From contig VLTN01000007.1 in assembly GCA_008330645.1 (NCBI GenBank), forward strand, positions 558,001 through 622,000: 64,000 nucleotides of DNA, written 5' to 3'. The DNA is from Cafeteria roenbergensis (Eukaryota > Sar > Bigyra > Bicosoecida > Cafeteriaceae). This document shows positions 29,259 through 48,233 of this stretch, one piece after another. The translations under genes and the position numbers were made by a program. The notes below the pieces were generated by a model that worked only from the letters and a program-made list of their open reading frames with translations, was not told the origin of the DNA and did not search any database. The number at the start of each line of letters is the position of its first letter. Within the stretch, counting starts at the first letter, position 1.

Positions 29259-29457
29259 GCGACGTTGCTCCATGCTGTGATGTCACCGCTTCGGCCTCGA
29301 ATTTTTTGCGCTCGAGCCGTCTGCTTGCGCTTGTGCAGCCCAGACAAAGACCACACGCTTGATTGCGGTCGACGCAGTGGTCGGATTCGTCAAGCGCAAA
29401 CCAACTCATCTGGTGTCTTTTCTGCGAGTCTGCAAAATAAGGCAGAGCCTTTACCTT

Positions 29458-29539
29458 GGTACTGTAGCAAAGTGGTTAATGCGATCGGCTGCTAACCGGT
29501 TGGTCTTAGACCGCGCAGGTTCGAATCCTGTCAGTGCCG
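29458..29539 (+). tRNA. tRNA-Ser (anticodon GCT), copy 1
   Basis: 82-nt cloverleaf without intron or encoded CCA. The acceptor GGTACTG pairs with CAGTGCC; the anticodon loop is CTGCTAA with GCT at positions 34-36; a long variable arm GGTC-TTA-GACC identifies a class II tRNA. Internal promoters are perfect: A box TAGCAAAGTGG and B box GGTTCGAATCC. A T-run terminator lies at 29545-29551. Confidence 0.97.
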
Positions 29540-29782
29540 AAGAATCTTTTTTTGTTGCTTGGGACACGCACTTTGCTTCCACAGCGATGGCCAGTCGTTT
29601 CGGCGGCAGCGCCAGGGCTTCCGAATCTCACGACAACTATTGCTCAGGCCCGCCTCGGCCTCGCGTCTGGCCCGAAGGCCCTGTCCAAAGATTCGAGCAA
29701 CGAGTGGCGCCCGAGGGCGAGCTGAGGCTATGTCAAATTTTCAGTTAGTCACATGTACTAGCGACGGCAGAGCTGTCATCTT

Positions 29783-29864
29783 GGTACTGTAGCAAAGTGG
29801 TTAATGCGATCGGCTGCTAACCGGTTGGTCTTAGACCGCGCAGGTTCGAATCCTGTCAGTGCCG
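29783..29864 (+). tRNA. tRNA-Ser (anticodon GCT), copy 2
   Basis: Identical to copy 1 over all 82 nt. The 3' flank AAGAACC followed by five T residues is shared with copies 3 and 4. Confidence 0.97.
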
Positions 29865-30268
29865 AAGAACCTTTTTGGCGCCCGACTTGCCTGCTTCCGC
29901 CTAGCTCAGCGTCCTTGTGAAAGGCGACTGCCGGCAAGCACTTGAAACCTTTTGTCGATGCCCGGGCCACGCCAGCACAGTCAGCTGCACGTCCCCTGCC
30001 ACCCTCGACACACTTGGGCCCAGGCCCGCCCGGACCCGTGCACTTGCTTGGACCAGCGATGCCAAGCGAGAAAAAAGATTGTGGCTTCCACCGGTCCACT
30101 CATCACAACGTTGCCAGCACTGCAACTCGCTATGCGCAGTGGCCACGTGGATGCAGGCTTCGTACTTGCGCCTGGGCAATCCGCATAGGCATGCGCAATC
30201 GCGACAAGCAGTGCGCGCTCACATTTTGCTTGTAGAGCAAAATCAAGAGCAAAATCAAAAAGGTTCTT
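29865..30268. other. Spacer between convergent tRNA genes
   Basis: AT-richer than its surroundings; no further RNA gene or credible open frame recognised. Confidence 0.5.
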
Positions 30269-30350
30269 CGGCACTGACAGGATTCGAACCTGCGCGGTCT
30301 AAGACCAACCGGTTAGCAGCCGATCGCATTAACCACTTTGCTACAGTACC
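30269..30350 (-). tRNA. tRNA-Ser (anticodon GCT), copy 3, inverted
   Basis: Same 82-nt sequence on the opposite strand, with the same 3' flank (CGAAGAACC then five T, reading leftward), so the flank was copied with the gene. Confidence 0.97.
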
Positions 30351-31126
30351 AAGTTGAACCTTGGCACAACTTTTGGTTATGAGAACGTGGTAGTTTAAGT
30401 TTTCTGCCTGGGTTGGGCTGCCGTTGTCCCGCTGTGCCCTTGGTCCCGTTGTGCACTGGGCAGGCAATTTCGTGAACGTTGCTAGGCTGCTTGTGCCAAG
30501 AGTATCACTTACTTGTATCTGTTTTTAAACCGCCAACCCCAGAACTCGATAATTGCCCAAGCATTTGCGGGGCGCTTCGCTCCTCCCAAGGGCGGCAGCA
30601 GCGCAAGCGCCGAGGCAGTAGGACGGGTGGAGCGTGCGCGCAACAGGAACGCCACTCCTGGCCGCTGCTGGCGCATGCGACGCGGCCGAGGCACCGCTCG
30701 TTTTCGCCCGTCTGGTCCACGCGGCAGCCTGGAATGCTTCGTTGCGGGGAGATGCTGAGCCGCGAGGAGCTTGTGTGCTGGCGCGGGGCAGCGTGACGCC
30801 GTGAGTGCAAGGCTGGCGGTGCGGCTCGGCTCCGCAGTCGCTGCAGCGGCCAGTCGTGTCGCCGGACCGCGTTCGGTGTGACCGTGGGAGGGTTGACCGG
30901 GCCTTGCCGCCGTGAGTGGGCGGAGCTGGGCTGGGCAGTGTGGCGGCGACAGGCAGACACCACACGCGACGCGGCTCAGCACGGACTGTTGCTGCCCCGC
31001 CGCCGGGTTGGGCGCTGGAGTACGGGCGAGCTTGACGTCGCGGCGCAGTGGGAACCTGATCAGCCACGCGCACGTGCACACAGACACGTGATTCGCACGG
31101 CACGTGGCGGCCATGCTGTGGGACGG
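30351..31126. other. AT-richer spacer and 3' flank of the ankyrin gene
   Basis: Contains a 22-bp sequence at 30503-30524 (TATCACTTACTTGTATCTG then TTT) that recurs with one change at 34127-34148 on the far side of the ankyrin gene. No gene is recognised. Confidence 0.5.
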
Positions 31127-33613: not shown

Positions 33614-34603
33614 GGCCCCGACTGCGCAGGCTGTCGGGAGTGCGCCGCCGCGGGAGCGCCGAGCATCTGAGCAAGCCCTAGGCTCTGCCGCCGCGCAAGA
33701 TCGCAGAGTGATGCTCTTTCTGGCGGAAAGCACGCCTGTGTGCCCCACCCGGGGCACTTCCGCTGGGCCATGCAGCACACATCCATGCTGCAGTCGGAAT
33801 TCGCGGGCGAGCGGGCGGGGAGCCGTCCGCGGCTGCCGGCAGCAGTGCTGCTTGCGGAGCGTTTGCGGCCGTTTGCGCCCGCCTCGCTCCGACCGCACTC
33901 GCCCCACCACCCTCCACGCCATCCAAGCATGGCCCCTCAAAGTATCCAGTGGCGCCCAGTCTGGTCTGGGCGCGGGCACAGCAGCCGGGCAGCATCCCTG
34001 CACCCATTCGAGTGGCCGAGGCGACCATCAACGCACCTGACCGCCCGATACCACCCAGCACCAATCGCAGCGGTACTGTGCGAGAGACACCCCCAGAGAA
34101 GCATGTGGCGCGATGGGGCGCGGGAATATCACTCACTTGTATCTGTTTAAAAGCCGTCAAGTTTGTCGGCAGTAGCAAGATGCGTGCGGAATGGGGTTTT
34201 CCTTTACTCGCCTTAAAAGCGCCACCACTGATTGGCCACACTCGCAAGTAGCATCAGACTGCGCAGCCACGTGTTTTCCGTAAGCGGCTCAACAACCCCG
34301 CACCATCCATGTCAAACTGAGCACAGCCTGTCAGTGGATGCCTGTGTGCATCGCAGAGACTTTGCGGCACCTGCTCAGCATCTCCATCTGCTCAGCTATT
34401 CTCACTTGCAGGCGATGATTCGACTAAAAGGCGGCATGATCCTTCTTGTGGTACTGTGCGAACAGCCAGGCCATTGCGCTACATCGCGTTAAAGGATGGG
34501 CTCCTCCATCACGAGAAAAAAAACGAGTGCCACCTTTCCCATTGCCACGCTTCCACGCAATTGTAAGTATAGTATGACACACACTTCCTGACCTCGGTAT
34601 CTT
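33614..34603. other. Upstream region of the ankyrin gene, partly AT-rich
   Basis: Holds the presumed ankyrin promoter and, from about 34080, an AT-richer island. It contains the second copy of the 22-bp repeat (34127-34148) and two short GGTACTGTGCGA sequences (34072, 34450) that resemble the 5' end of the tRNA-Ser. No complete gene is seen. Confidence 0.45.
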
Positions 34604-34685
34604 GGTACTGTAGCAAAGTGGTTAATGCGATCGGCTGCTAACCGGTTGGTCTTAGACCGCGCAGGTTCGAATCCTGTCAGTGCCG
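34604..34685 (+). tRNA. tRNA-Ser (anticodon GCT), copy 4
   Basis: Identical to the other three copies, followed by the same AAGAACC and five-T terminator. It lies on the opposite side of the ankyrin gene from copies 1-3. Confidence 0.97.
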
Positions 34686-34940
34686 AAGAACCTTTTTGAT
34701 TCGTTTCCGTCGGGAGAAAAGCGGTTGCATTGGTCTCTCGTGGTCGAGGTGTCGTTCGTCCTTCACATGGAGTGCCTCGCCGACACCGAGACACGGATCG
34801 AGCTTAGCGACGCCTCGAATGCCAAACGCTCCCGACGGCGGGGGCGTGGTCGCAGTCCTGCCCCCAGCCTCGGCCACGCGTGGCAAGGAATCGCGCATTC
34901 AGCGGGGTACGCAGAGAAGCACACGCAAAGCAAACACACC

Positions 34941-36491
34941 CTAGGAAATGGAAGCACCGGCCGAGCCACGGTGGCGTGCCGTGTCCATGGCACCAGCGCT
35001 GTCGTGGAACTGGCGCTCGCGCAGCTGCGCCGCCAACAGCGCCTCTTCGTCGGCACGGAGCTCCGCAGGGGACCGCTTCCGCTCGGCGGACATGTTGATG
35101 AAGAACGACCAAAAGCCGATGACGAGCCCAAGGCTGCCACCGACGGAGAGGGTGAGCTGCAGGTCTTCGGCGATTCGGCTCGCGGTAGACTTGGATCCGC
35201 TGTCGGGTGCTACAACCGCGAAGACAGCGCCAAAGTAGATCCCCGCGACTAGGAAGAGGCCCAGGGCTGCCCACATAACGGGCACGGGCACGGCAAAGAA
35301 GGCCCGGAAGCGGAGAGGGCTGACTGAGCGAGGCGCGCGGCTCTTTCCAGCCGCGGCAGCAGCACGACCGGGTACCGAGGGGACGGAGGACGGGGGCGTC
35401 TCGCTCACAGCCCCAGTCGGGCGGACGACCTCGGTCACGTCGAGAGTGGGCGGGCGCTCGGCGGCCGCTTCCGCTGCCAGGTCCGCGTCAGTGGGGGCCA
35501 GGAGGCGATAGAGCCACTGCCCTGTCGCGTTGATAACGTGAACAGACACAATGACAAGGCTCGTGGTCACCCCGGCCGAGATGCTGACGTATCTGCAAGA
35601 GGAGACAAGGGCAGCGGGGAGGGGTGGGGCGCGGGGCCGGGAGGCCCAGCCAAGCGAGAGCTTTCGGGGCTCGAGAGTCGGGGCTCGAGAGTCGGGGCTC
35701 GAGAGTCGGGGCTTGAGAGTCGGGACGCGAGCGCGAGCACGACGAGGAGGCAGGCCGCCCTGCACCCCCCTCCCGCCCCCGAGAGACGCACAGTCGCCCG
35801 CGACAAGGCACAGAGGGATAGGGAGGGGGGGTTTGGGACGGCAAAGGCTTCGGGCCTCGGCGCGGTGGCTCACGAGAAGATCCGGAGGCCAAGCACCTCC
35901 CTGGCCATGCCCGACCCTGGCATGGAGGCGGAAGCCATCACGGCAGCAGAGAAGAGAAACACAACAACGACCGCGACGGGGACGGAGCCCCAGAGGGTGG
36001 GAGCTGGCCGATGTGACTCCACTCCAGGAGCCGGGCGACGGGGAGCGTCGAGGTGTCGGACAATCTCCACGATTGCGAGGCCGAGGGCGAGCACGACGAG
36101 GCAGCTCGCGACCACGCTGGCGACTGCAGTGCTCTTGCCGATGTCAATCAGGAGCCAGGCAATGCTGACTGCAATGCTGCACCCGAGGGAAGCGCCAACA
36201 ACCTGCGCGGGGGCGGAGGGACACGAGCGGGCCGCCAACCATCGGCGATAACGGTCCCCACACCGGCCCGGCAAATGGCACGACCGCGCACACGACACAG
36301 CGGGCAGCGGCCGCTGCGCGGGGCTCTGGCCCGCGGCAGCTGGAAGGCGGGACGCGGCGCCTCGCGGAAGAAGCGCAAGGCCGCGCAAGCAGGCGGGGCC
36401 AGCCAAGCGCTGGCACGCAGCACGAGCTCACGAGTGCCACAAAGGCCCAAACAACTGCCTCCCCGCACCGGGATCGCTTTGGCGCGGCCAT
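34941..36491 (-). CDS. Six-transmembrane protein, unknown
   Basis: Exons 36491-36432, 36202-35874 and 35592-34941 join in matching phase (GTGAGC donors; GCGCAG and TTGCAG acceptors) to give 346 residues. Hydrophobic segments in order: WAFVALVVGASLGCSIAVSI across the first junction, SVVASCLVVLALGLAIVEIV, VPVAVVVVFLFSAAVMASAS, TTSLVIVSVHVINATG, VMWAALGLFLVAGIYFGAVF and LTLSVGGSLGLVIGFWSFFI. A Ser/Pro/Ala-rich hydrophilic loop of about 75 residues separates the fourth and fifth. The C-terminus is charged and cytosolic-looking. No transporter or channel signature is recognised. The second intron (35593-35873) contains a 14-bp minisatellite. The first exon is short but the membrane segment continues smoothly across the junction, which supports it. 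Confidence 0.7.
35666..35722. repeat. 14-bp minisatellite in an intron
   Basis: Four tandem copies of GGGGCTCGAGAGTC (last copy with one change) within the second intron of the six-TM gene. Confidence 0.85.
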
Positions 36492-38832: not shown

Positions 38833-39718
38833 CGCCGACGCCGCCCTCAGCCGCGCTCGGGCCCAAGCCGCGGCTCAAACTCGCATGCCGGGCGCCGCGC
38901 ACTCCGCAGGGACACACCAGCGTTCTGGGCGCGCTGAGGCCCACGCTCTAGGTGGCCAGGCCAGCCGACAAGGCAAGGGGAGGGCGAAACGGCAGCGTGG
39001 CGGCGAGCCTCACCACCACTCGGCCACGGCGGCTCGGTCCATTGGCAGGCAGGCCTGTCCGGGGTGCTTGGCGCTCGGAGCGTGCTCTGCAGCCCGTCGA
39101 TCGCCGAGCGGCAGAGCCGTGCCCGCGTGACGGCTGCCTTCTGCTGAACTGGCACAACTCAAGCCTCCCGAGCGGAGCACGGCGAGCCATGGCTGTCGCC
39201 GACTAGTGTGTGAGCCGCCTCCCTGCGCGCCAAGATGGTCTGGCAGAGGAGGGGTTCGGCCCCTTTCCACGGGTCCTGCTGAGCGCGTGGGAGCAAATCG
39301 AGCGCCCGAGCCGCCGATTTGCCCCCTCGCCGAGGCGCTTCCTCCTGCCCACCGCCGAGGCGATGACGAATGCTTTCGCTTCACGACGGTCAACTGAATA
39401 ACCGTGATCGAGCACCGCGGGCTCCCTTTCACAGGGACTTGTCGCGAGCCTTGCTGCGAACCCCGCGCTGCTGCCGGGGTTTGGCTGCTTTTGGGTTCCT
39501 TGTTGGCAGGACTCGCGCCCGCGCACCCCTCCACTTCGCCCGCCCCCCTCCCGCTGCCCGCTCGCGCTCCGCAGCTTGAAGCACAGTCACATCGACTCGT
39601 ACACAACAAGCCCATGGATTTGGGTGGGCTACTCCTGGGGGTACATTGCGTCGGAAGCGGGCGCTCGAGCGTCCAAACACACTGTGAGTCTTCCCACCCA
39701 AAGCCCGACGCCTCCACC
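38833..39718. other. Intergenic region, nothing firm
   Basis: GC-rich up to about 39590, then AT-richer. A weak C/D-box-like arrangement lies at 39360-39405 (CGATGA, an AATGCTTTCGC stretch antisense to a conserved 18S segment, then AACTGA), listed only as a candidate. Confidence 0.4.
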
Positions 39719-39802
39719 TCCGCAATGAAGAAAGATTACACCTTCCTTGGATGTCTGACATTACACCGTGATGTTGATTTGTTTCAGCCTTGTCCTAGCG
39801 GA
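39719..39802 (+). ncRNA. Box C/D snoRNA with the U14 methylation guide
   Basis: A 5-bp terminal stem TCCGC/GCGGA encloses box C ATGAAGA (39725), box D' CTGA (39755), box C' GTGATGT (39768) and a degenerate D box CCTA (39794). The sequence just before D', CCTTCCTTGGATGT, is complementary over 14 nt to the universal 18S segment ACATCCAAGGAAGG, and the fifth base before D' pairs with the C that U14 methylates (C414 in yeast). A second guide GTTTCAGCCTTG before box D is complementary to 18S CAAGGCTGAAAC. The U14 domain A needed for 18S processing is not seen, so this is a U14-site guide rather than a full U14. Confidence 0.75.
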
Positions 39803-40163
39803 ATCGTCGTGACCCGCAACCTTGTGGTCCGGTCCGACCGAAAGCACGCGCCGTCGGAGCTCTGGTTGTTCGCCCGGCCACCCCCGCTTCCCTCCGCTCG
39901 AACTGTGCGCACCCCCTGCCGCAGTCCCTCGCTTCCCGGCAGGAGAACCGTGCGATGGGAAAATCGGCCTCGCCCTTTGTGCAATGTGAGGCTTCCCTCC
40001 AGCAACCCGCGCGCGCGGACTTCCCTATGATGTCAACCATAGGTTATTTGTACATCTGAGAGCAGCAGGGTTCGCCCGTGCAGCTCGCTGAAGTATGTAA
40101 CCCCAACGCTAGATAGTATCGGAGGGACTTGAAATGCTTCAAGCGCGCCTCGCGCCTCTCGCT
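39803..40163. other. Spacer in the snoRNA island
   Basis: AT-richer DNA with no open frame. ATGATGT at 40027 and CTGA at 40067 could mark a further C/D snoRNA, but I find no rRNA match between them. Confidence 0.4.
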
Positions 40164-40220
40164 TGGAAATGATGATAATTTGGTCCGTGTTATTGACACC
40201 GCTAGCGGTGGCTGAAGATA
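40164..40220 (+). ncRNA. Box C/D snoRNA, U18 family
   Basis: Box C ATGATGA at 40169-40175 and box D CTGA at 40212-40215. Between them TTGGTCCGTGTT lies just before a D'-like TTGA (40193); this is the antisense element of U18, complementary to the conserved large-subunit segment AACACGGACCAA. The fifth base before D' pairs with the same A that U18 methylates. A short palindrome CCGCTAGCGG precedes box D. No strong terminal stem is visible, so ends are approximate. Confidence 0.78.
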
Positions 40221-40539
40221 CTCAACCTTGTCTGATCCTCCAGCTGCGGTCTGCCGTGTCTGATTGCCGCCCGCGTGCAGCTACCGCAATGTTCCCCCAA
40301 TTTTGTTTGTCTGGTTTCTCGCAGTTGGTGACGGGCTTTGACGGTGGTCAAGAGAAAGTGCCCAGGCTCGACGACGACAAAGGCCCACCACCTCGACCAG
40401 CGTGAGTTTGAACTCCGTCGCCTTAGTTCCAGGGCCATGACGATACAACTTTACGACTGAAGACCATTTGTGATGTTCTTTTTCCACAACCTCTAGGAAG
40501 TTCGTAGCCCTGTCGTGTCAATCCCACCCCTCGAGAGAG
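40221..40539. other. Spacer in the snoRNA island
   Basis: No credible open frame. Includes a possible further C/D pair (ATGACGA at 40438, CTGA near 40460, GTGATGT near 40473) without a recognised target, and an intron-like CTCGCAG near 40320. Confidence 0.35.
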
Positions 40540-40619
40540 GTCGATGAGGAAAACTTTTATCACCATCTTTCGCCTGACGAATCCTGATGACAAACGCTTC
40601 ATGCATCACCATCCGAGAC
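40540..40619 (+). ncRNA. Box C/D snoRNA, U32/U51 (yeast snR39) family
   Basis: Terminal stem GTC/GAC, box C TCGATGA (40541), D' CTGA, C' TGATGA (near 40585) and D-like CCGA (40613). The guide CACCATCTTTCG (40561-40572) is complementary to the universal large-subunit segment CGAAAGATGGTG and is the known U32/U51 element; the fifth base before D' again selects the expected A. The second guide CATGCATCACC pairs with 18S GGTGGTGCATG with one G-U pair, as in U32, which also has a second 18S guide at this place. Box spacing and the stem mirror mammalian U32. Confidence 0.85.
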
Positions 40620-41071
40620 TTTGTCTCTCTTGGGGGGCTTTGTCCTGCTTCGTCTGCATCGTTCCAGCCCTGCTTGCCTCCACCTTGTCTCCAGGCCTTG
40701 TTGCTTCCCACTGCCCATGGCCCGCAGGATCGGCATCAGTCACAATCGGGAGCCCTGACATCATGTGTCTGTGCGTGCATTAGCATGGCTCGTGCGCAAA
40801 TCAACCCGATGAACTCGTGCCCTTTCCGCTCGTTCACCCGCCAACACTAGACGCCACTCAAGAATGCCCACCCAGTCTTGCTTTTGCCATGCGGCCCCGT
40901 AGCTTCGGGTTCGAGGGCTGCTTTCATGTGGCCCTGGAGCGCAAGAGATGGAGGCACTGCAAAACCGCAGAGCTGCGACGCGTTGCCAGTGGGTTCCGCC
41001 ATCCTGCTGATCACTGAGGGCACGGCCACGGAGCGTGTGGCAGGGCGGCGTGGCCCTCAGCCGTGCATCGC
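40620..41071. other. Region between the snoRNA island and the channel gene
   Basis: AT content falls back to the local norm. No open frame or RNA gene is recognised; the channel promoter should lie here. Confidence 0.4.
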
Positions 41072-44000
41072 ATGGCCATCGAGCTCGGCATCGCGCCCGG
41101 GGGCTTGGAGCCGGGCGAAGTCGAGGTCAAGCCGTCCGGCTGGCACATTTTGCCCAGCCGCTGCAGGCGCAAGGCCAAGCCATGGACGCAAGCGGACCTG
41201 AGCGACATGCACCGCGCGCTTGCGATGCTCATGAGGCTCCCAACTGCTGCTGAAAAGGCGGCGTTCGCAGCGGCGTATCGCAAGCAACAGGTGAGGCGGT
41301 TCGCTCGCGCCTGCTCGCCCGTTGCATTGTGCGCGCGCAAAGAGGTTGCACGCCCTAAGCTCGGGGCCCGAGCGACAGGCCGCCCATGGGAGGCGCGCTT
41401 GGTCCGTGGCAGCTGCGCGGTGGGCAGAACAGCGCAGCTTTGGGCCGTGCCGAGCCAGCCGGCGAGGGGCTGGGCAGGGGGAGGGGGGTTTCCCCGGCCG
41501 CTGACTGCGCCGCGCGTCGAGCTCGGTTGCGACGACCTCGCTTCCGGCGCCTGAACTTGCGCCGCGCCGGGAGACGGCACCGAGCCGTTGGCGAGCCGAC
41601 TCGCGTGGGGCCGGCCGCACTGTGGCTGACATGGCGTCGGTTGGCGAGGGTTGGGGCGGGAGAGGGGGTGTTGTTCCACTGCTGCGCCAGCAGGCAGTCA
41701 GGCCAGCAGCGGGCGAAGGTGGGCGCGGGGAGGGGCGCGCCTTGCCGATGCCCCGGCCTCGGCGGGGCGCGCTGCACCGCCTGCCCACTGCGGCAAGGCA
41801 CGGTGTCTGGCCTTCGCGCGCTGTTGAGCAGTCCTGAGCCGGGGCCGGATGTCCGAGGAGCGGGGGCGCACACTCTGCTGGCAAGCTCGTTCTTTGTTCC
41901 AACTCCTGTGCTCGCCCACCGTGTCTTTCGCGTCGGTGCGCTCCCCGCAGGCTCAAACGGAGCTGCAACCCGTCGCATTGTGCTGCTTGACGAGGTCGAA
42001 CCCGCTTCGCGTCCTTTGCGAGCACATGATGCGGTCATGGTGGTTTGACCAACTGGTCGTCGTCGCCATCCTGGTCAACTGCGTCGTGCTGGCCTTGTTC
42101 GACCCGTTAGACACAAGGGACGAGACTTGGCAGAACCAAATCGGGAACATCTTGGAGTGGCCCTTCACGGTCATTTTCACGCTCGAGCTTGTCATCAAGA
42201 TTGTCGCAATGGGGCTGCTTGGAAAGCGGTCGTACCTGGCGGACGGGTGGAACTGGATCGACGGGTCGGTGGTGGTGGTCGGGTGAGATGATTCAGGCCT
42301 CGCACTGCCACGCGTGGGCCGAGGGGAGCCGGTGCGCCCAACGCTGTTTCGCCATGCTCGCGCGGGGATGGTGCGTGCCTCGCAGGTACTTTGGGCTCTT
42401 CCCCGGCGTCGGGAACGTGTCCGCGCTCAGAACGTTCCGAGTGCTGCGACCGCTGCGCACGCTTACCAGGTTTGAGGGGATGCGCGTCATCGTGCAAGCC
42501 ATGCTGTCCAGCGTTCCGGCGCTCTTCAACGTCGCCCTGCTCTGCGCCTTCATCTTCTTGGTGTTTGGCATCATCGGAGTGCAACTCTGGGCTGGAGTTC
42601 TCCATGGCCGGTGCATGTACGAGACGCCCTCGGGGGAGTTGCTGGAGCACCCGGACTCGCTCTTTTGTGCGCTTTCCTGCGAGCAATTCCCAACGACGTG
42701 CACCTTCACTTTTGGGCAGGGCTGTCCTGCCTACGAGGCGCTCGTGGCGAACACCACCACCGGCCTGTTGGAGCGCGAAGTGATGCCTGGGTCCTGCCAC
42801 AGCATAGGCAACCCAGGGTTTGGTGGCGTCGGATTCGACAACATCGGGCTCGCGTGCCTCACCATCTTCACGGCCATCACTCTCGAAGGCTGGGTTGACG
42901 TCATGTATGCCCTAACGAGAGCGTGGGGGATCGAGCCTGTCGTGACCTTGTACTTCATTCTTGTCATCATGTTCGGCGCATTCTTCCTGCTCAACTTGGC
43001 CCTCGCCGTGGTTTGGGACGAGTACGAGACAGCCGCATCCGAGCGCATCGAGTCACAGCGCGCTCTGATCCGCCATCTCACGCTTGAGCTCCAGGCCGCG
43101 CTGCCTGGTGCCGCCGACGAAGCAGCAGTCGGCGGCTCGCCCGACTGCCAGAGCAAGTCCGCGCAACCCGGAGCGACGACCTCCCTCCCCGACATGAGCA
43201 ACCTGCGGGCAGACGGCAGCACGTCAGACGACTGCGCTCCCGAAGCAGCAGGTGCCGGACCCTGCACACCGGATGCGCCGCACGCCAGCCCTCCTGCCGA
43301 AGCACGCGCTTCGCAGCCTGGCAGCGTGGCCTCGTCTGCGCCGCTCGAAGTAGCCGGCCCCGCCTCCGAAGCAGCGAGTCCGGCCGCTCCTGCTGGTGGC
43401 ACGCCACAGGGGCTACAGGACGGGTCTGCAGTCGGCAAGCCGTCCACAGCCTCGTCAGAGGCAGCCGGTGGCCTGCAGCTGCTGGGCGGGCCTCACACAT
43501 CTCTGGGAGGAGAGAGCGGGATGGCGTCGCCGACCGCCGCGATACAGGTTGCCTCTGGAGGGCAGCCCAAAGCAGCCGCTGCCTTGAAGCGGGCAAAGCC
43601 TGCTGGTAGGCGCACCAGCTCCCGGGTCACGTTCGTGACGGACAAGCCAGACGGCATTGCCGGCGGGAACCCGTCCCCGCGCCAGGACACTGACACGTCC
43701 ATTCGCATGGACTCCTCCACGACGGACGGAAGTATATCCACCATGGGGTCGGGGACGTCGACAGCGAGCAGCATTCGCAGACTGCCCACCGCATGGCAGT
43801 TCACAGAATCCGACCGGGCCAAAATGGGGTGCTGCCAGTACGTAGCGACCAGCAGGGCCCTCGAGCTCACCATTTCCTTCCTGATCGGTCTGAACACCAT
43901 TGCACTCGCCATTGAGCACCATGGGATGTCATCGACGCTGAGCAACGTGCTAGAGATCTTGAACTACTGCTTCACGGCCATCTTCGCCGCTGAGATGCTC

Positions 44001-47000
44001 ATCAAGCTGGCGGGCCTCGGCTTGCCGATGTACTGCCGCTCCGCCTTCAACGTGTTCGACGCGGTGGTCGTCTGCGTGTCCGTGGTTGAGATCATCCTGT
44101 CCCTCACTTCTGCAGAGCTGGCCTCGGGGCTGTCGGCTCTGCGGACTTTCCGTTTGATGCGCGTGTTCAAGCTCGCCAAGACTTGGAAGGACCTGCAGCG
44201 GCTTCTGGTGACCATCATGCGGAGCGTTCTAGACGTGGCCAGCGCGTCGGTTGTGCTGCTCATCATCATGTTCATCTTCGTTCTGCTCGGCATGCAGCTG
44301 TTCGGGGGCCGCTTTGGGGCGTCGACGTTCGGCGAAGACCAGCCGCGAGCTCACTTTGACAACTTCGGGTGGGCCTTCGTCACCGTCTTCCAGGTGCTAA
44401 CTGGCGAAAACTGGAACGAGGTGCTGTTTGCGTCAAAGCACGCAGTCGGGGACATTGCCGTCGCGTACTTCGTTGCGCTGACCATCGTCGGAAACTACTT
44501 GATGCTCAACCTGTTCCTGGCCATCTTGCTAGGCAACTTTGAAAAGGCTGCCGTAGATGACGCCAAAGCCGCTGCGAAGAAGCGTCGGCGTGCGCTGCGC
44601 AAAGCCCAAAGAGGGGAGAGCGAAGGCCAGGCCGACGGCGCGTCCCCGCGCCAGCTTGAGAGCGCTGGGGTCGAAGACGATTCCTTTATCCAGGCCTCGC
44701 TCTCCCAGGACGCCCTCGAGGGGGGCGCTCAGCCCACAGAGTCCCCAAGGTCTGCGACTCGCGGCGTGGGCGAGTCCCCGGGCGCCAGCTGCGCAGAGCC
44801 CGCCCAGAAAGAAGCGCCAGCGGCCCCAGCCGCCGGCAGCCAGGAGAAGCAGCACCAGGTGTCGCTCGCAGAGGGGGCGTCCCTGGCGACGCGGTCCAAG
44901 GGACGAGGCCCCGAGAGGCATTCCGGAGGGAGTCCGGCGCAGCTGCCGCCAGTGCGGCACACCAGAAATAGTTTCGCAACGCGACTCAGTCCCCGGCACG
45001 CCGTCGGAGAAGGCGCGTTTCTGGACGACTCGAGCGCGAACGCAGGGCCTACTTCTCCAGCCCGCCCTGCCTCGCGTGAAGCTTCGGGTCTGCCCGAGCT
45101 ACCCGGGTCGGCGTCTGGCGAAGATACAGACCGGCTGAAGGAGCCGCCAAGGTCGGAGCAAAGCAGCAGGGAGGTGCTCGACCCCCCAAGTGCTTGCACC
45201 GCGCAGCCGAGCGGCAGTCCGGTGGCATTCTTGCACCCGGCCAGCTCGGCGCCCGCACGCGGGATGAAAGAGCGAGCCGATGCAGACAGCAAGTCAGCTG
45301 CCGCGCAGCACCTGCCTCACGACCCAGGGAAGAGGCCCACGGCGGGGCTCCCCGAGCAAGAGCTGGCCAAAGCCAAGTCGGCTGTTGCTGCGACGTCTCG
45401 CCCCGCACGGGTGGCCCCGAGCGACCAGTCGAAGCGAGCGGCAAGCGACCTGCCTCGACACGGTGGCCGCGGTGCTCCGCATGAAGCGGGCCACCGCCGA
45501 AGCGATACGGCACCAAAGTCCAGACACTCCCAGGTCTTGGACGTGAAGATGATGTACCGAGGGCGCATGGCAGGCACGTCGCGGATGACGACGACCATAA
45601 CGGACGAGACGGGACGACGACTGGCAGTGAAAATCACAAAGTCCGGGGACGTAAGCGTCAAGGACGGGGGCGCAATGAGCATGAGCAGCGAATCTGGGGA
45701 AATTCCAGACGAGCAACGCGTGCAGCTCGCGAAGAGCCCAGAGGCGGACATGCCGCTGCAATGGCCACAGCACTACACGCTGGGACTGTTCTCGCCAAGC
45801 AGTCCGATCCGGCGGTTCAGCGACATGGTTGTGACTAACCCGTGGTTTGGCCGCATTGTGTTGGTCCTCATCGCGCTGTCGTCGGTTCTGCTCGCCGTGG
45901 ACGAGCCGGCAGTGGCCAAGTGCCAGCGCATCCCCAGCGGCAGCCCGGGCAGTTGTGAGACGTTGGGGACGATACTGTATGTCGCCGACGTGTGCTTGAC
46001 AGCGCTCTTCAGCTTTGAGTTGGTGGTGAAGCTTGTCTCGATGGGCGGGCTGGGAAGTCCGCACGCATACTTCTCGTCCGGCTGGAACATCCTGGACTGT
46101 GCCATTGTCGGTGTCTCCATCGCGTCGCTGGCTCTCGGAGAGGCATCGTCCCTCAAGGCTCTGCGTTCCTTGAGAGCTCTGCGCGCCCTCCGTCCCCTTC
46201 GCGTCGTCTCGAGGTATCCAAGTTTGAAGCTCGTGGTAAACTCGATTTTTGGGGCACTTCCAAAGGTCACCAACGTGGCACTGGTCAACTTTCTCTTCTT
46301 TTTCATCTTCGCCATTGTTGGAGTGCAAAACTTCACCGGCGCGCTGAGCCAGTGCAACGACCCAGACACTGAGAGCCTTGAGGCATGCGTCGGGATGTTC
46401 AACGTGACCGGCTCTCTCTGCGTCATGCTCCCCGACACGGAACAGGCGGAAGCGTGCCGGCTCGATCCTGCAGGCGCGCCCTTTCCTCGGCTCTGGGAGC
46501 CACCTCCGTACCACTTCGACAACGTCCTGAACGGCCTGCTAACCGTGTTCGAGGTTGCGACCGGGGAGATGTGGCCGGACATCATGTACGTGTGCGTGGA
46601 CTCCGTGGGGCCCGGCCAGCCGCGGAAAAAGGACACTCAGCCCGCTGCGGCCATCTTCTTTGTCATGATCCAGGTGCTCTGCGCGTTTTTCATGCTGGAG
46701 GTGTTCACGGGTGTGATCATCGACAACTTCAACAAGCTCAAAGCCGAGTCCAAGGGGTCCGGTTTGCTCACGCCAGAGCAGCAGCGACTCATCGAGTCCC
46801 TAAAGATGTTGCTCTCCGTGCGCCCCAGGAGGGTGATGCGCCCTCCCAGGGCGAGCAACTGGCTGCAGCCTGTCCGAATGGCGGCGTTTCGCGTTGCCGA
46901 GAGCTACGCGCTCGAGATCTTTATCATGTCCGTCATCGTTGTGAACAGCATCTTCCTTGCTGCGCGCTTCTATGGCCAGCCGCCCGAATGGGAGACAATT

Positions 47001-48233
47001 CTGGAGACGACCAGCACGGTGTTCACGGTGGTCTTTACAACAGAGGCATGCGTCAAGCTCCTTGGCCTCGGGCTGTCGCAGTACTTTGTTGTGACCTGGA
47101 ACAAGTTCGACTTTGTTCTAGTCATCGCTGGCTGGGTCGGCATCCTCTTCGATGTCGGGCCTTTGGCGACGCTGCTGCGGGTCTTTCGCGTGGCCCGCAT
47201 CTTCCGCTTGGTCCGGACGTCTCGAGGGCTCATGCAGTTGCTGAGGACGCTGATCGTGTCCATCCCGTCGCTCCTCAACGTCGGCGCCCTGCTGCTCTTA
47301 CTGTTCTTCATCTTCGCGTGCGTGGGCATGAACCTCTTCAGCGACATCAAGCACGGCGAGTTCTTGAACGACGAGGCAAACTTTGAATCCTTCGGCACCG
47401 CGATGGTGACGCTGTTCCGAGTGTCTACTGGCGAGTCGTACAATGGCATCATGCACGACGCCATGGTTCAGCCTCCGTACTGCGACCCGGACACGAACTG
47501 CGGCGACTTGGTCCTGGCCCCCATCTTCTTCGTGGTGTTCTTCATCATCTCGTCATTCGTGCTTCTCAACTTGCTGGTTGCAATCATTCTGGACAACTTT
47601 GAGGACACCAAGAGCGCAGAAAGCACAAAGCTCGGATTCAGGCTCACCGAAGACTTTTCGCGGCACTACCAGGACATGTGGTCCAAATTTGACCCCCTAG
47701 CCACCGGCGTGGTGTCGTTCGAGGACTTGGTGCAGCTCGTCTGCTCGTTGAAGTTCCCGCTGGGCCTCAGGGACCACCCTGGAGTGCACCACGGACCCGA
47801 CCTCGGCCGAATCGCGGAAAAGGTGCTTGAGCAGCTCAACATTCAGTCGGTGGAGAATGAAATGTTCGAGTTCCAAATTGTTCTGCAGGCGCTGGTTAAC
47901 AACGCCAGCGGCAAGGACTGGGAACAGGCGCGCATCACGGCGGCGCCAAAGCTGCAAATCCAGGGGGACCTGAAGATCATGGGCGGGCTCAGGCAAGCGC
48001 TGGCAGTGCGGAAAATCCAAGCGCTGGTGCGCAGCCGCAACGAGTTCAAGCGGCGGCTTGTGGTCATGGAGGAGGAACTGGGGAGGCCGGCCACAGAAGA
48101 GGAGCGTTCGAAGCTGCGGACGCAGACCATGAAGACGGACCGAAGAACCGCTGCCATGATGTTCGCAATGGGAACCGCGGATGCCGCACATCGTCCTCAG
48201 AGCCCCGAAAGCGCGGGCGCGGGAATTTCGTAG
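41072..48233 (+). CDS. Four-repeat voltage-gated calcium channel alpha-1 subunit
   Basis: Exons 41951-42282 and 42386-48233 are firm; a first exon 41072-41290, phase-compatible across a 660-bp intron, is tentative. The total would be 2,132 residues. Each of four repeats has S1-S6: S4 helices carry regular Arg (LRTFRVLRPLRTL, LRTFRLMRVFKLAK, LRSLRALRALRPLRVV, LLRVFRVARIFRLVR). Pore loops read TLEGW, TGENW, TGEMW and TGESY, i.e. a Glu in all four repeats, the signature of Ca2+ selectivity; the fourth has Tyr in place of the common Trp. The segment before IS1 (ALCCLTRSNPLRVLCEH) matches CaV channels. After IVS6 there is the EF-hand-like region (WSKFDPLATGVVSFEDL) and an IQ motif (KIQALVRSRNEFKRR) for calmodulin. 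The I-II and II-III linkers are long, Ser/Ala-rich and presumably regulatory. It lies in the plasma or flagellar membrane by analogy. Confidence 0.92.

Follow-up and report, generated by a model that had tools for sequence, protein, structure and literature searches.

The locus raises the question of whether a short, AT-richer island in the 64-kb window (the whole stretch of DNA that was analyzed) encodes a cluster of box C/D snoRNAs, how many RNAs the cluster comprises, and from what kind of transcript they would be released. The island (39719–40622, plus strand, ~0.9 kb) has a GC content of 0.549 versus 0.695 for the window, which bears out its description as AT-richer in the earlier note; the GC content of some other 1-kb bins is almost equally low (0.566 at 34001–35000). 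Re-reading of the sequence and Rfam covariance models located all three snoRNAs reported in that note at the places where it had put them, on the plus strand: CCTTCCTTGGATGT occupies 39741–39754 (+) in RNA1, TTGGTCCGTGTT lies in a SNORD18-like RNA (RNA2; 40164–40239, +), and CACCATCTTTCG in RNA3 (40537–40622, +). The count of three, however, was too low, because five box C/D snoRNAs are predicted in the island. Very probably, the island consists of five tandem genes of box C/D guide snoRNAs on the plus strand, whose products would be excised from a precursor and direct the 2′-O-methylation of rRNA.

Predicted RNAs of the island

RNA1 (39719–39802, +) is a predicted dual guide with a terminal stem formed by TCCGC (39719–39723) and GCGGA (39798–39802); its boxes are C ATGAAGA (39725–39731), D′ CTGA (39755–39758), C′ TGATGT (39769–39774), and D CCTA (39794–39797). 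RNA5 (40022–40127, +), a weaker candidate absent from the earlier note, was detected only with the looser of two search grammars and by a duplex with LSU rRNA. It has a stem of TCCC (40022–40025) and GGGA (40124–40127) and the boxes C ATGATGT (40027–40033), D′ CTGA (40056), C′ TGAAGT (40089), and D CGGA (40120–40123); its support consists of one LSU guide and the 4-bp stem, and it had no snoRNA match in a 1.3-kb Rfam search without thresholds. RNA2, identified by Rfam and the grammar, has the boxes C ATGATGA (40169–40175), D′ TTGA (40193–40196), C′ TGAAGA (40213), and D CTGA (40232–40235), a hairpin of 6 bp (CACCGCTAGCGGTG) between D′ and C′, and a terminal stem of only 3 bp. RNA4 (40430–40512, +), a snoU61-like RNA likewise new relative to the earlier note, is indicated by Rfam, the grammar, and an SSU guide; its stem (CAGGGC, 40430–40435; GCCCTG, 40507–40512) encloses the boxes C ATGACGA (40437–40443), D′ CTGA (40457), C′ TGATGT (40471), and D CGTA (40503–40506). 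RNA3, a SNORD32/33-like dual guide indicated by Rfam, the grammar, and its guides, has the boxes C ATGAGGA (40544–40550), D′ CTGA (40574–40577), C′ TGATGA (40585), and D CCGA (40613–40616). In the order RNA1, 5, 2, 4, and 3, the terminal stems comprise 5, 4, 3, 6, and 6 pairs, with GU pairs in RNA3, and the stem geometry leaves one unpaired nucleotide 5′ of box C. A perfect hairpin (CTTGAA-ATGC-TTCAAG, 40128–40143, +), possibly a processing signal, is located directly between RNA5 and RNA2.

At gathering thresholds, an Rfam search of the 64-kb window returned four tRNAs and no snoRNA. The window contains four tRNA-Ser(GCU) genes (29457–29540, +; 29782–29865, +; 30268–30351, −; 34603–34686, +), all with the identical 82-nt sequence; both strands are represented, and the surrounding 1-kb bins have a lower GC content (0.57–0.61). 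Without thresholds, four distinct C/D families were found in tandem on one strand: SNORD14 (RF00016; 39691–39758, +; partial, model positions 37–107; 24.5 bits versus a gathering score of 64; E = 0.03 in 1.3 kb and 1.5 in 64 kb), SNORD18 (RF00093; 40164–40239, +; full model; 32.4 versus 41; E = 0.00081 and 0.04), snoU61 (RF01170; 40432–40510, +; full model; 28.8 versus 55; E = 0.00062 and 0.031), and SNORD33/32 (RF00133; 40537–40622, +; full model; 32.6 versus 44; E = 0.0014 and 0.067). The covariance-model check proposed in the earlier note thus recovers SNORD14, SNORD18, and SNORD33/32, and adds snoU61 as a fourth family not mentioned there, but all scores remain below gathering, so that Rfam by itself is no proof of snoRNAs. 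Across the 64 kb, six C/D rows were obtained at E ≤ 10, a count that leaves out five lower-scoring overlapping rows of the same clan: the four island families, an sn1502 row overlapping a C/D match of the island (E = 0.88), and the archaeal family sR52 on the minus strand at 46268 (E = 2.9).

Independent of any rRNA sequence, a target-blind grammar (C RTGANGA; D CN[GT]A; internal YTGA and TGANGW; a stem that adjoins the 3′ end of D and is set off by one nucleotide from the 5′ end of C) gave four matches when both window strands were scanned, each of them inside the island (C/D pairs 39725/39794, 40169/40232, 40437/40503, and 40544/40613), and none in 1000 shuffled islands (0/1000), although these counts are not fully independent because the grammar was written after reading the island RNAs and tuned on them. 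A looser grammar (no internal boxes, stem score 9) gave 20 matches (11 on the plus and 9 on the minus strand), four of them in the island; it adds RNA5 (40027/40120) and drops RNA2 because of the short stem of the latter. When a slightly wider grammar was applied to 50 loci of the genome (150.9 kb; 30 preselected by box pattern, three of them copies of the island), it flagged L149, L154, and L159 in addition to the island RNAs and is therefore not perfectly specific. L149 (6-bp stem, D box CGTA) was set aside by eye, since its opposite strand seems to be coding, and is possibly a spurious match.

A genome-wide search for the C-D′-C′ pattern yielded 46 matches, whereas the reversed control gave 5. 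The 46 include three RNAs of the island and 19 rows that repeat a single coding-like sequence; by eye, many of the others resemble low-complexity acidic coding sequence. The grammar was run on the 30 matches that had loci and not on the other 16. Near-identical copies of the coding-like sequence are found on contigs C4 (953500), C94 (62373), C114 (15956), C115 (1), C130 (16341), and C140 (10633) of assembly G000, and a shorter part of it on the minus strand of C8 (164119); with one copy at a contig start, the repeat is possibly a mobile or subtelomeric family.

The candidate at L154 (C47:142906–142955, minus strand; about 4955–4880 of L165, G000:C47:138001–148000) has the boxes C ATGACGA and D CTGA and a 3-bp stem, and appears to lie in an intron; the end of the gene concerned resembles that of a W2-domain (eIF4G/eIF5-type) protein. 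The candidate overlaps only partly with a weak match to SNORD49 (15.1 bits, E = 1.8), and it has no good guide to the yeast SSU (best score 7.8). Searches for other snoRNAs gave no match to the U3 model at E ≤ 10 (48 of 123 candidates scored). The guides of U24, snR73, and U27, written as 11-nt patterns, had 25, 0, and 3 matches in the genome, and none was in a C/D setting among the 20 U24 matches with loci read by eye and the U27 matches inspected by eye and with the grammar.

Guides and predicted rRNA targets

The targets were tested on foreign rRNA, i.e., the yeast SSU and two LSU-like fragments (L002 and L111); a search of the organism's own assembly with a single SSU pattern and a single LSU pattern (≤2 mismatches) found no rRNA. 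The yeast SSU stems from a contaminating rDNA contig (L109), recognized by its sequence and by a numbering that fits known sites, and L002 is an LSU fragment recognized by Rfam. L111, the source of the LSU word for RNA3, is not recognized as LSU by Rfam; we take the CGAAAGAUGGUGA word in it to be LSU. Duplexes were scored as pairs minus GU, with the D or D′ box fixed. A score of 11 with the SSU was reached in four of ten guide slots (RNA1 D′, RNA1 D, RNA4 D, and RNA3 D); among 150 shuffled SSUs, 142 had no slot with this score and eight had one.

The D′ guide of RNA1 forms 14 bp without GU and places SSU C414, the site of U14 domain B, at position 5 (all predicted targets are in yeast numbering), and its D guide forms 13 bp with SSU G1126, including one GU. 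The D guide of RNA4 (12 bp, one GU) is predicted to target SSU U1378, which we equate with human U1442 based on the human sequence, and that of RNA3 (14 bp, three GU) would target SSU U1269. The D′ guide of RNA3 forms 13 bp with CGAAAGAUGGUGA, the LSU-like word of L111; judging from its 25S context, we assume that the target is LSU A817 and that the guide is like that of U32. The assignment of the third RNA to the U32/U51 type therefore captures its U32-like LSU guide but misses that this guide is joined to a U33-like SSU guide. For RNA5, the D guide forms 12 bp with LSU UACUAUCUAGCG of L002, with U as the fifth base, presumably LSU U2347 by its 25S context. The D′ guide of RNA2, TTGGTCCGTGTT, has the same register as in the SNORD18 family of Rfam (U18 site, predicted target LSU A649), and its target word was not found in the LSU fragments searched. 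The slots RNA5 D′, RNA2 D, and RNA4 D′ had no target in the yeast SSU; an RNA4 D′ guide to SSU A619 was dropped because the position did not fit.

The earlier view that the fifth-base rule leads to known methylation sites is directly supported for C414 (U14), whereas the U18 site follows from the Rfam register and LSU A817 from the presumed 25S context. Two compilations list Cm414/U14, Gm1126/snR41, Um1269/snR55, Am649/U18, and Am817/snR60 as yeast sites (PMC5199042), Um1269/Um1326 for snR55/U33, and human Um1442/U61 without a yeast counterpart (PMC8817022). Three of the SSU targets (C414, G1126, and U1269) are thus yeast methylation sites, and U1378 is not listed as one. The guide CCUCUAxGAAGUU and its register are common to snoU61 and RNA4, which differs by its D box CGUA (not CUGA) and C box AUGACGA. 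RNA3 shares with SNORD32/SNORD33 the guide CAUGCA..ACCAU to yeast U1269/human U1326 and departs from them in combining a CCGA D box with an AUGAGGA C box. RNA2 has the guide and register of SNORD18/U18 and differs by its UUGA D′ box and the 6-bp hairpin between D′ and C′.

Could the antisense words have arisen by chance in a less GC-rich island? The stretches of 12–14 nt on which the earlier note had relied are present, but their length by itself is weak evidence: the plus strand of the window has five exact 12-nt antisense matches to the yeast SSU versus two to the reversed and five to the complemented SSU, and antisense words of 10–12 nt alone are near control level, so that an argument from length is insufficient. 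The joint tests of grammar and register and the tandem arrangement of four Rfam families, however, make chance an exceedingly improbable explanation. Another alternative, decayed snoRNA pseudogenes, would account for the off-consensus boxes (four D boxes and as many C boxes among the five RNAs) and for the fact that every Rfam score is below gathering. Yet the long duplexes with universal targets are kept in exact fifth-base register, the terminal stems are intact, and there is no second SNORD14 match at E ≤ 10 in the 36.3-Mb assembly, all of which renders pseudogenes very unlikely.

Putative host transcript

Given these boxes, stems, complementarities, and SSU positions of the guides, we infer that the island RNAs are transcribed, processed, bound by proteins, and active in methylation. 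Each RNA would be cut out of a longer precursor, either a UHG-like host with several introns or a polycistron. The terminal stem and the C/D boxes would form a kink-turn bound by Snu13/15.5K, followed by assembly of the snoRNP with Nop56, Nop58, and fibrillarin. The guide would then pair with rRNA, and 2′-O-methylation would occur at the rRNA nucleotide facing the fifth guide base upstream of the D or D′ box, with the variant D boxes CCUA, CGGA, CGUA, and CCGA still setting the guide in register.

The absence of an open frame, on which the proposal of a noncoding host was based, is only partly correct, because a stop-to-stop frame of 210 aa (39398–40030, +), without Pfam match at E 0.01, covers RNA1. 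Downstream of the island, a single open frame of 2040 codons (42111–48233, +), not interrupted by an intron, carries a GPHH motif as well as four ion-transport domains (Pfam Ion_trans, E = 1.6e-210); it probably encodes a calcium-channel-like, four-domain voltage-gated cation channel. For the noncoding polycistron of the earlier note, an unspliced precursor is only one option, because splice-like sites suit a spliced host about equally well.

There is about an even chance that the host is a spliced, UHG-like transcript of poor coding capacity with the snoRNAs in three of its introns, from which they are freed after debranching. Splice-like signals delimit a candidate host at 39684–40694 (+), with donor-like GTGAG at 39684, 39986, and 40402 (+) and acceptor-like sites ending at 39942 (or 39924), 40324, and 40694 (+); the putative introns would hold RNA1, RNA5 and RNA2, and RNA4 and RNA3, respectively. 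Three plus-strand GTGAG within 39684–40406 compare with 0.77 per kb in the window, the donors lie 28–36 nt upstream of a snoRNA stem, and a pyrimidine-rich acceptor follows 72–140 nt past the last snoRNA of each putative intron. The C47 candidate, whose apparent intron has the donor GTGAGCC and the acceptor CCGCAG, points in the same direction, and the genome may nest C/D RNAs in introns also there. Such signals are cheap, however, since there are 17 acceptor-like YAGs in 1.4 kb and the acceptors were chosen to fit. In the joined exons, two of the three frames are broken; the third stays open for 95–101 codons across the junctions, with its only ATG near the end, and no convincing coding frame of a host results. 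An unspliced polycistron transcribed from its own promoter and then processed into individual snoRNAs, the mode known from plants and Ostreococcus, has a probability slightly short of even; it would suit the close packing of five RNAs in 0.9 kb, with a gap of only 24 nt between RNA4 and RNA3, but not the regular placement of donors and acceptors. There is precedent for both arrangements: Neurospora has clusters with UHG-like hosts (PMC2780460), and Ostreococcus, in which independent clusters are frequent (12 clusters with 49 snoRNAs, 10 of the clusters intergenic), employs introns alongside clusters (PMC7671301).

A U14-type guide and variant terminal boxes

The cluster is mostly ordinary, with two notable features: a U14-type guide without domain A, and variant D boxes in four of the five RNAs. 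The earlier label of RNA1 as U14 holds for the domain B guide, but domain A (SSU near 81–96) was not found and a second guide (G1126) is present; the longest complements to SSU 75–112 in the island are two 8-nt stretches outside RNA1. As in U14 (SNORD14), which methylates SSU C414 in yeast, the guide CCUUCCUUGGAUGU is followed by CUGA; in RNA1, by contrast, this CUGA acts as D′ box, and the RNA continues via C′ to the G1126 guide and a CCUA D box. A second guide to SSU G1126 is shared with yeast snR41, which pairs it with an A541 guide, whereas RNA1 pairs it with the C414 guide. With 98 of 116 candidates scored, the single match of the SNORD14 model to the 36.3-Mb assembly at E ≤ 10 was the RNA1 locus (E = 0.196), but the same search gave matches also in 9 of 14 prokaryotic control genomes, so that the genome match by itself proves little. 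The two domains of U14 are reported to function independently of each other, and domain B to be absent from the fly RNA (PMC6315972); RNA1 would represent the reverse split, with no domain A found.

An exact D box (CUGA) occurs in only one of the five RNAs (RNA2), and the others have CCUA (RNA1), CGGA (RNA5), CGUA (RNA4), and CCGA (RNA3). These variant D boxes are deduced from their place, which is fixed by the stem and the fifth-base register. The C box matches RUGAUGA exactly also in one of five cases (RNA2); RNA1, RNA4, and RNA3 deviate at position 5 and RNA5 at position 7. The D′ box of RNA2 is UUGA and that of the other four RNAs CUGA, a regularity that is partly selected, as the grammar required YTGA inside and left D free only within CN[GT]A. 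In Neurospora, the terminal boxes C and D are for the most part strongly conserved (86%), so that published sets, too, include departures from the exact consensus, and degeneracy affects C′/D′ (PMC2780460). In the island, it is the terminal D boxes that vary, whereas the internal ones read CUGA or UUGA. CCGA occurs as a D′ box in Plasmodium (PMC2656528).

In the kink-turn, the C5:D2 (3b:3n) pairs of RNA1, 5, 2, 4, and 3 are A:C, U:G, U:U, C:G, and G:C, respectively; all five RNAs retain the G.A pair and the 4b:4n G-C pair, and three retain the A.G pair. Kink-turn studies describe a 3b:3n U:U as strongly conserved in human box C/D RNAs (PMC5689011), a Watson-Crick pair at 3b:3n as blocking folding by ions alone (PMC4382518), and U at 2n as the commonest state in Kt-23 (PMC3985660). 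RNA1 and RNA4, with their CNUA D boxes, share 2n = U with Kt-23, which, unlike the snoRNA boxes of the island, are ribosomal k-turns. The non-U:U pairs are partly compensatory: three of four are Watson-Crick or GU, against a random expectation of 6/16. By itself, this covariation is not significant, and since five RNAs are too few, we make no claim of covariation. If the L154 candidate is real, its CUGA box would mean that D-box drift is not general, and its C:U at 3b:3n would speak against covariation.

It is conceivable, though rather doubtful, that this lineage loosened the terminal C/D kink-turn and kept the internal one, and that domain A of U14 was lost or moved while domain B ended up in a double guide. 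Neither a lineage with drifting terminal D boxes nor a domain-A-less U14 double guide was reported in the titles and abstract openings of the top matches of larger sets, subscription journals excluded. If true, this scenario would imply an altered specificity of Snu13/Nop58 or an assembly that starts at C′/D′. Both snoRNA finders and kink-turn theory treat box D (CUGA) as a fixed point, and variant D boxes would help to explain the sub-threshold scores of standard models. A U14 guide with domain B only supports the separability of the methylation and processing parts of U14, and RNAs whose D boxes are forced by stem and register (CCGA, CGUA) would show what the assembly machinery reads.
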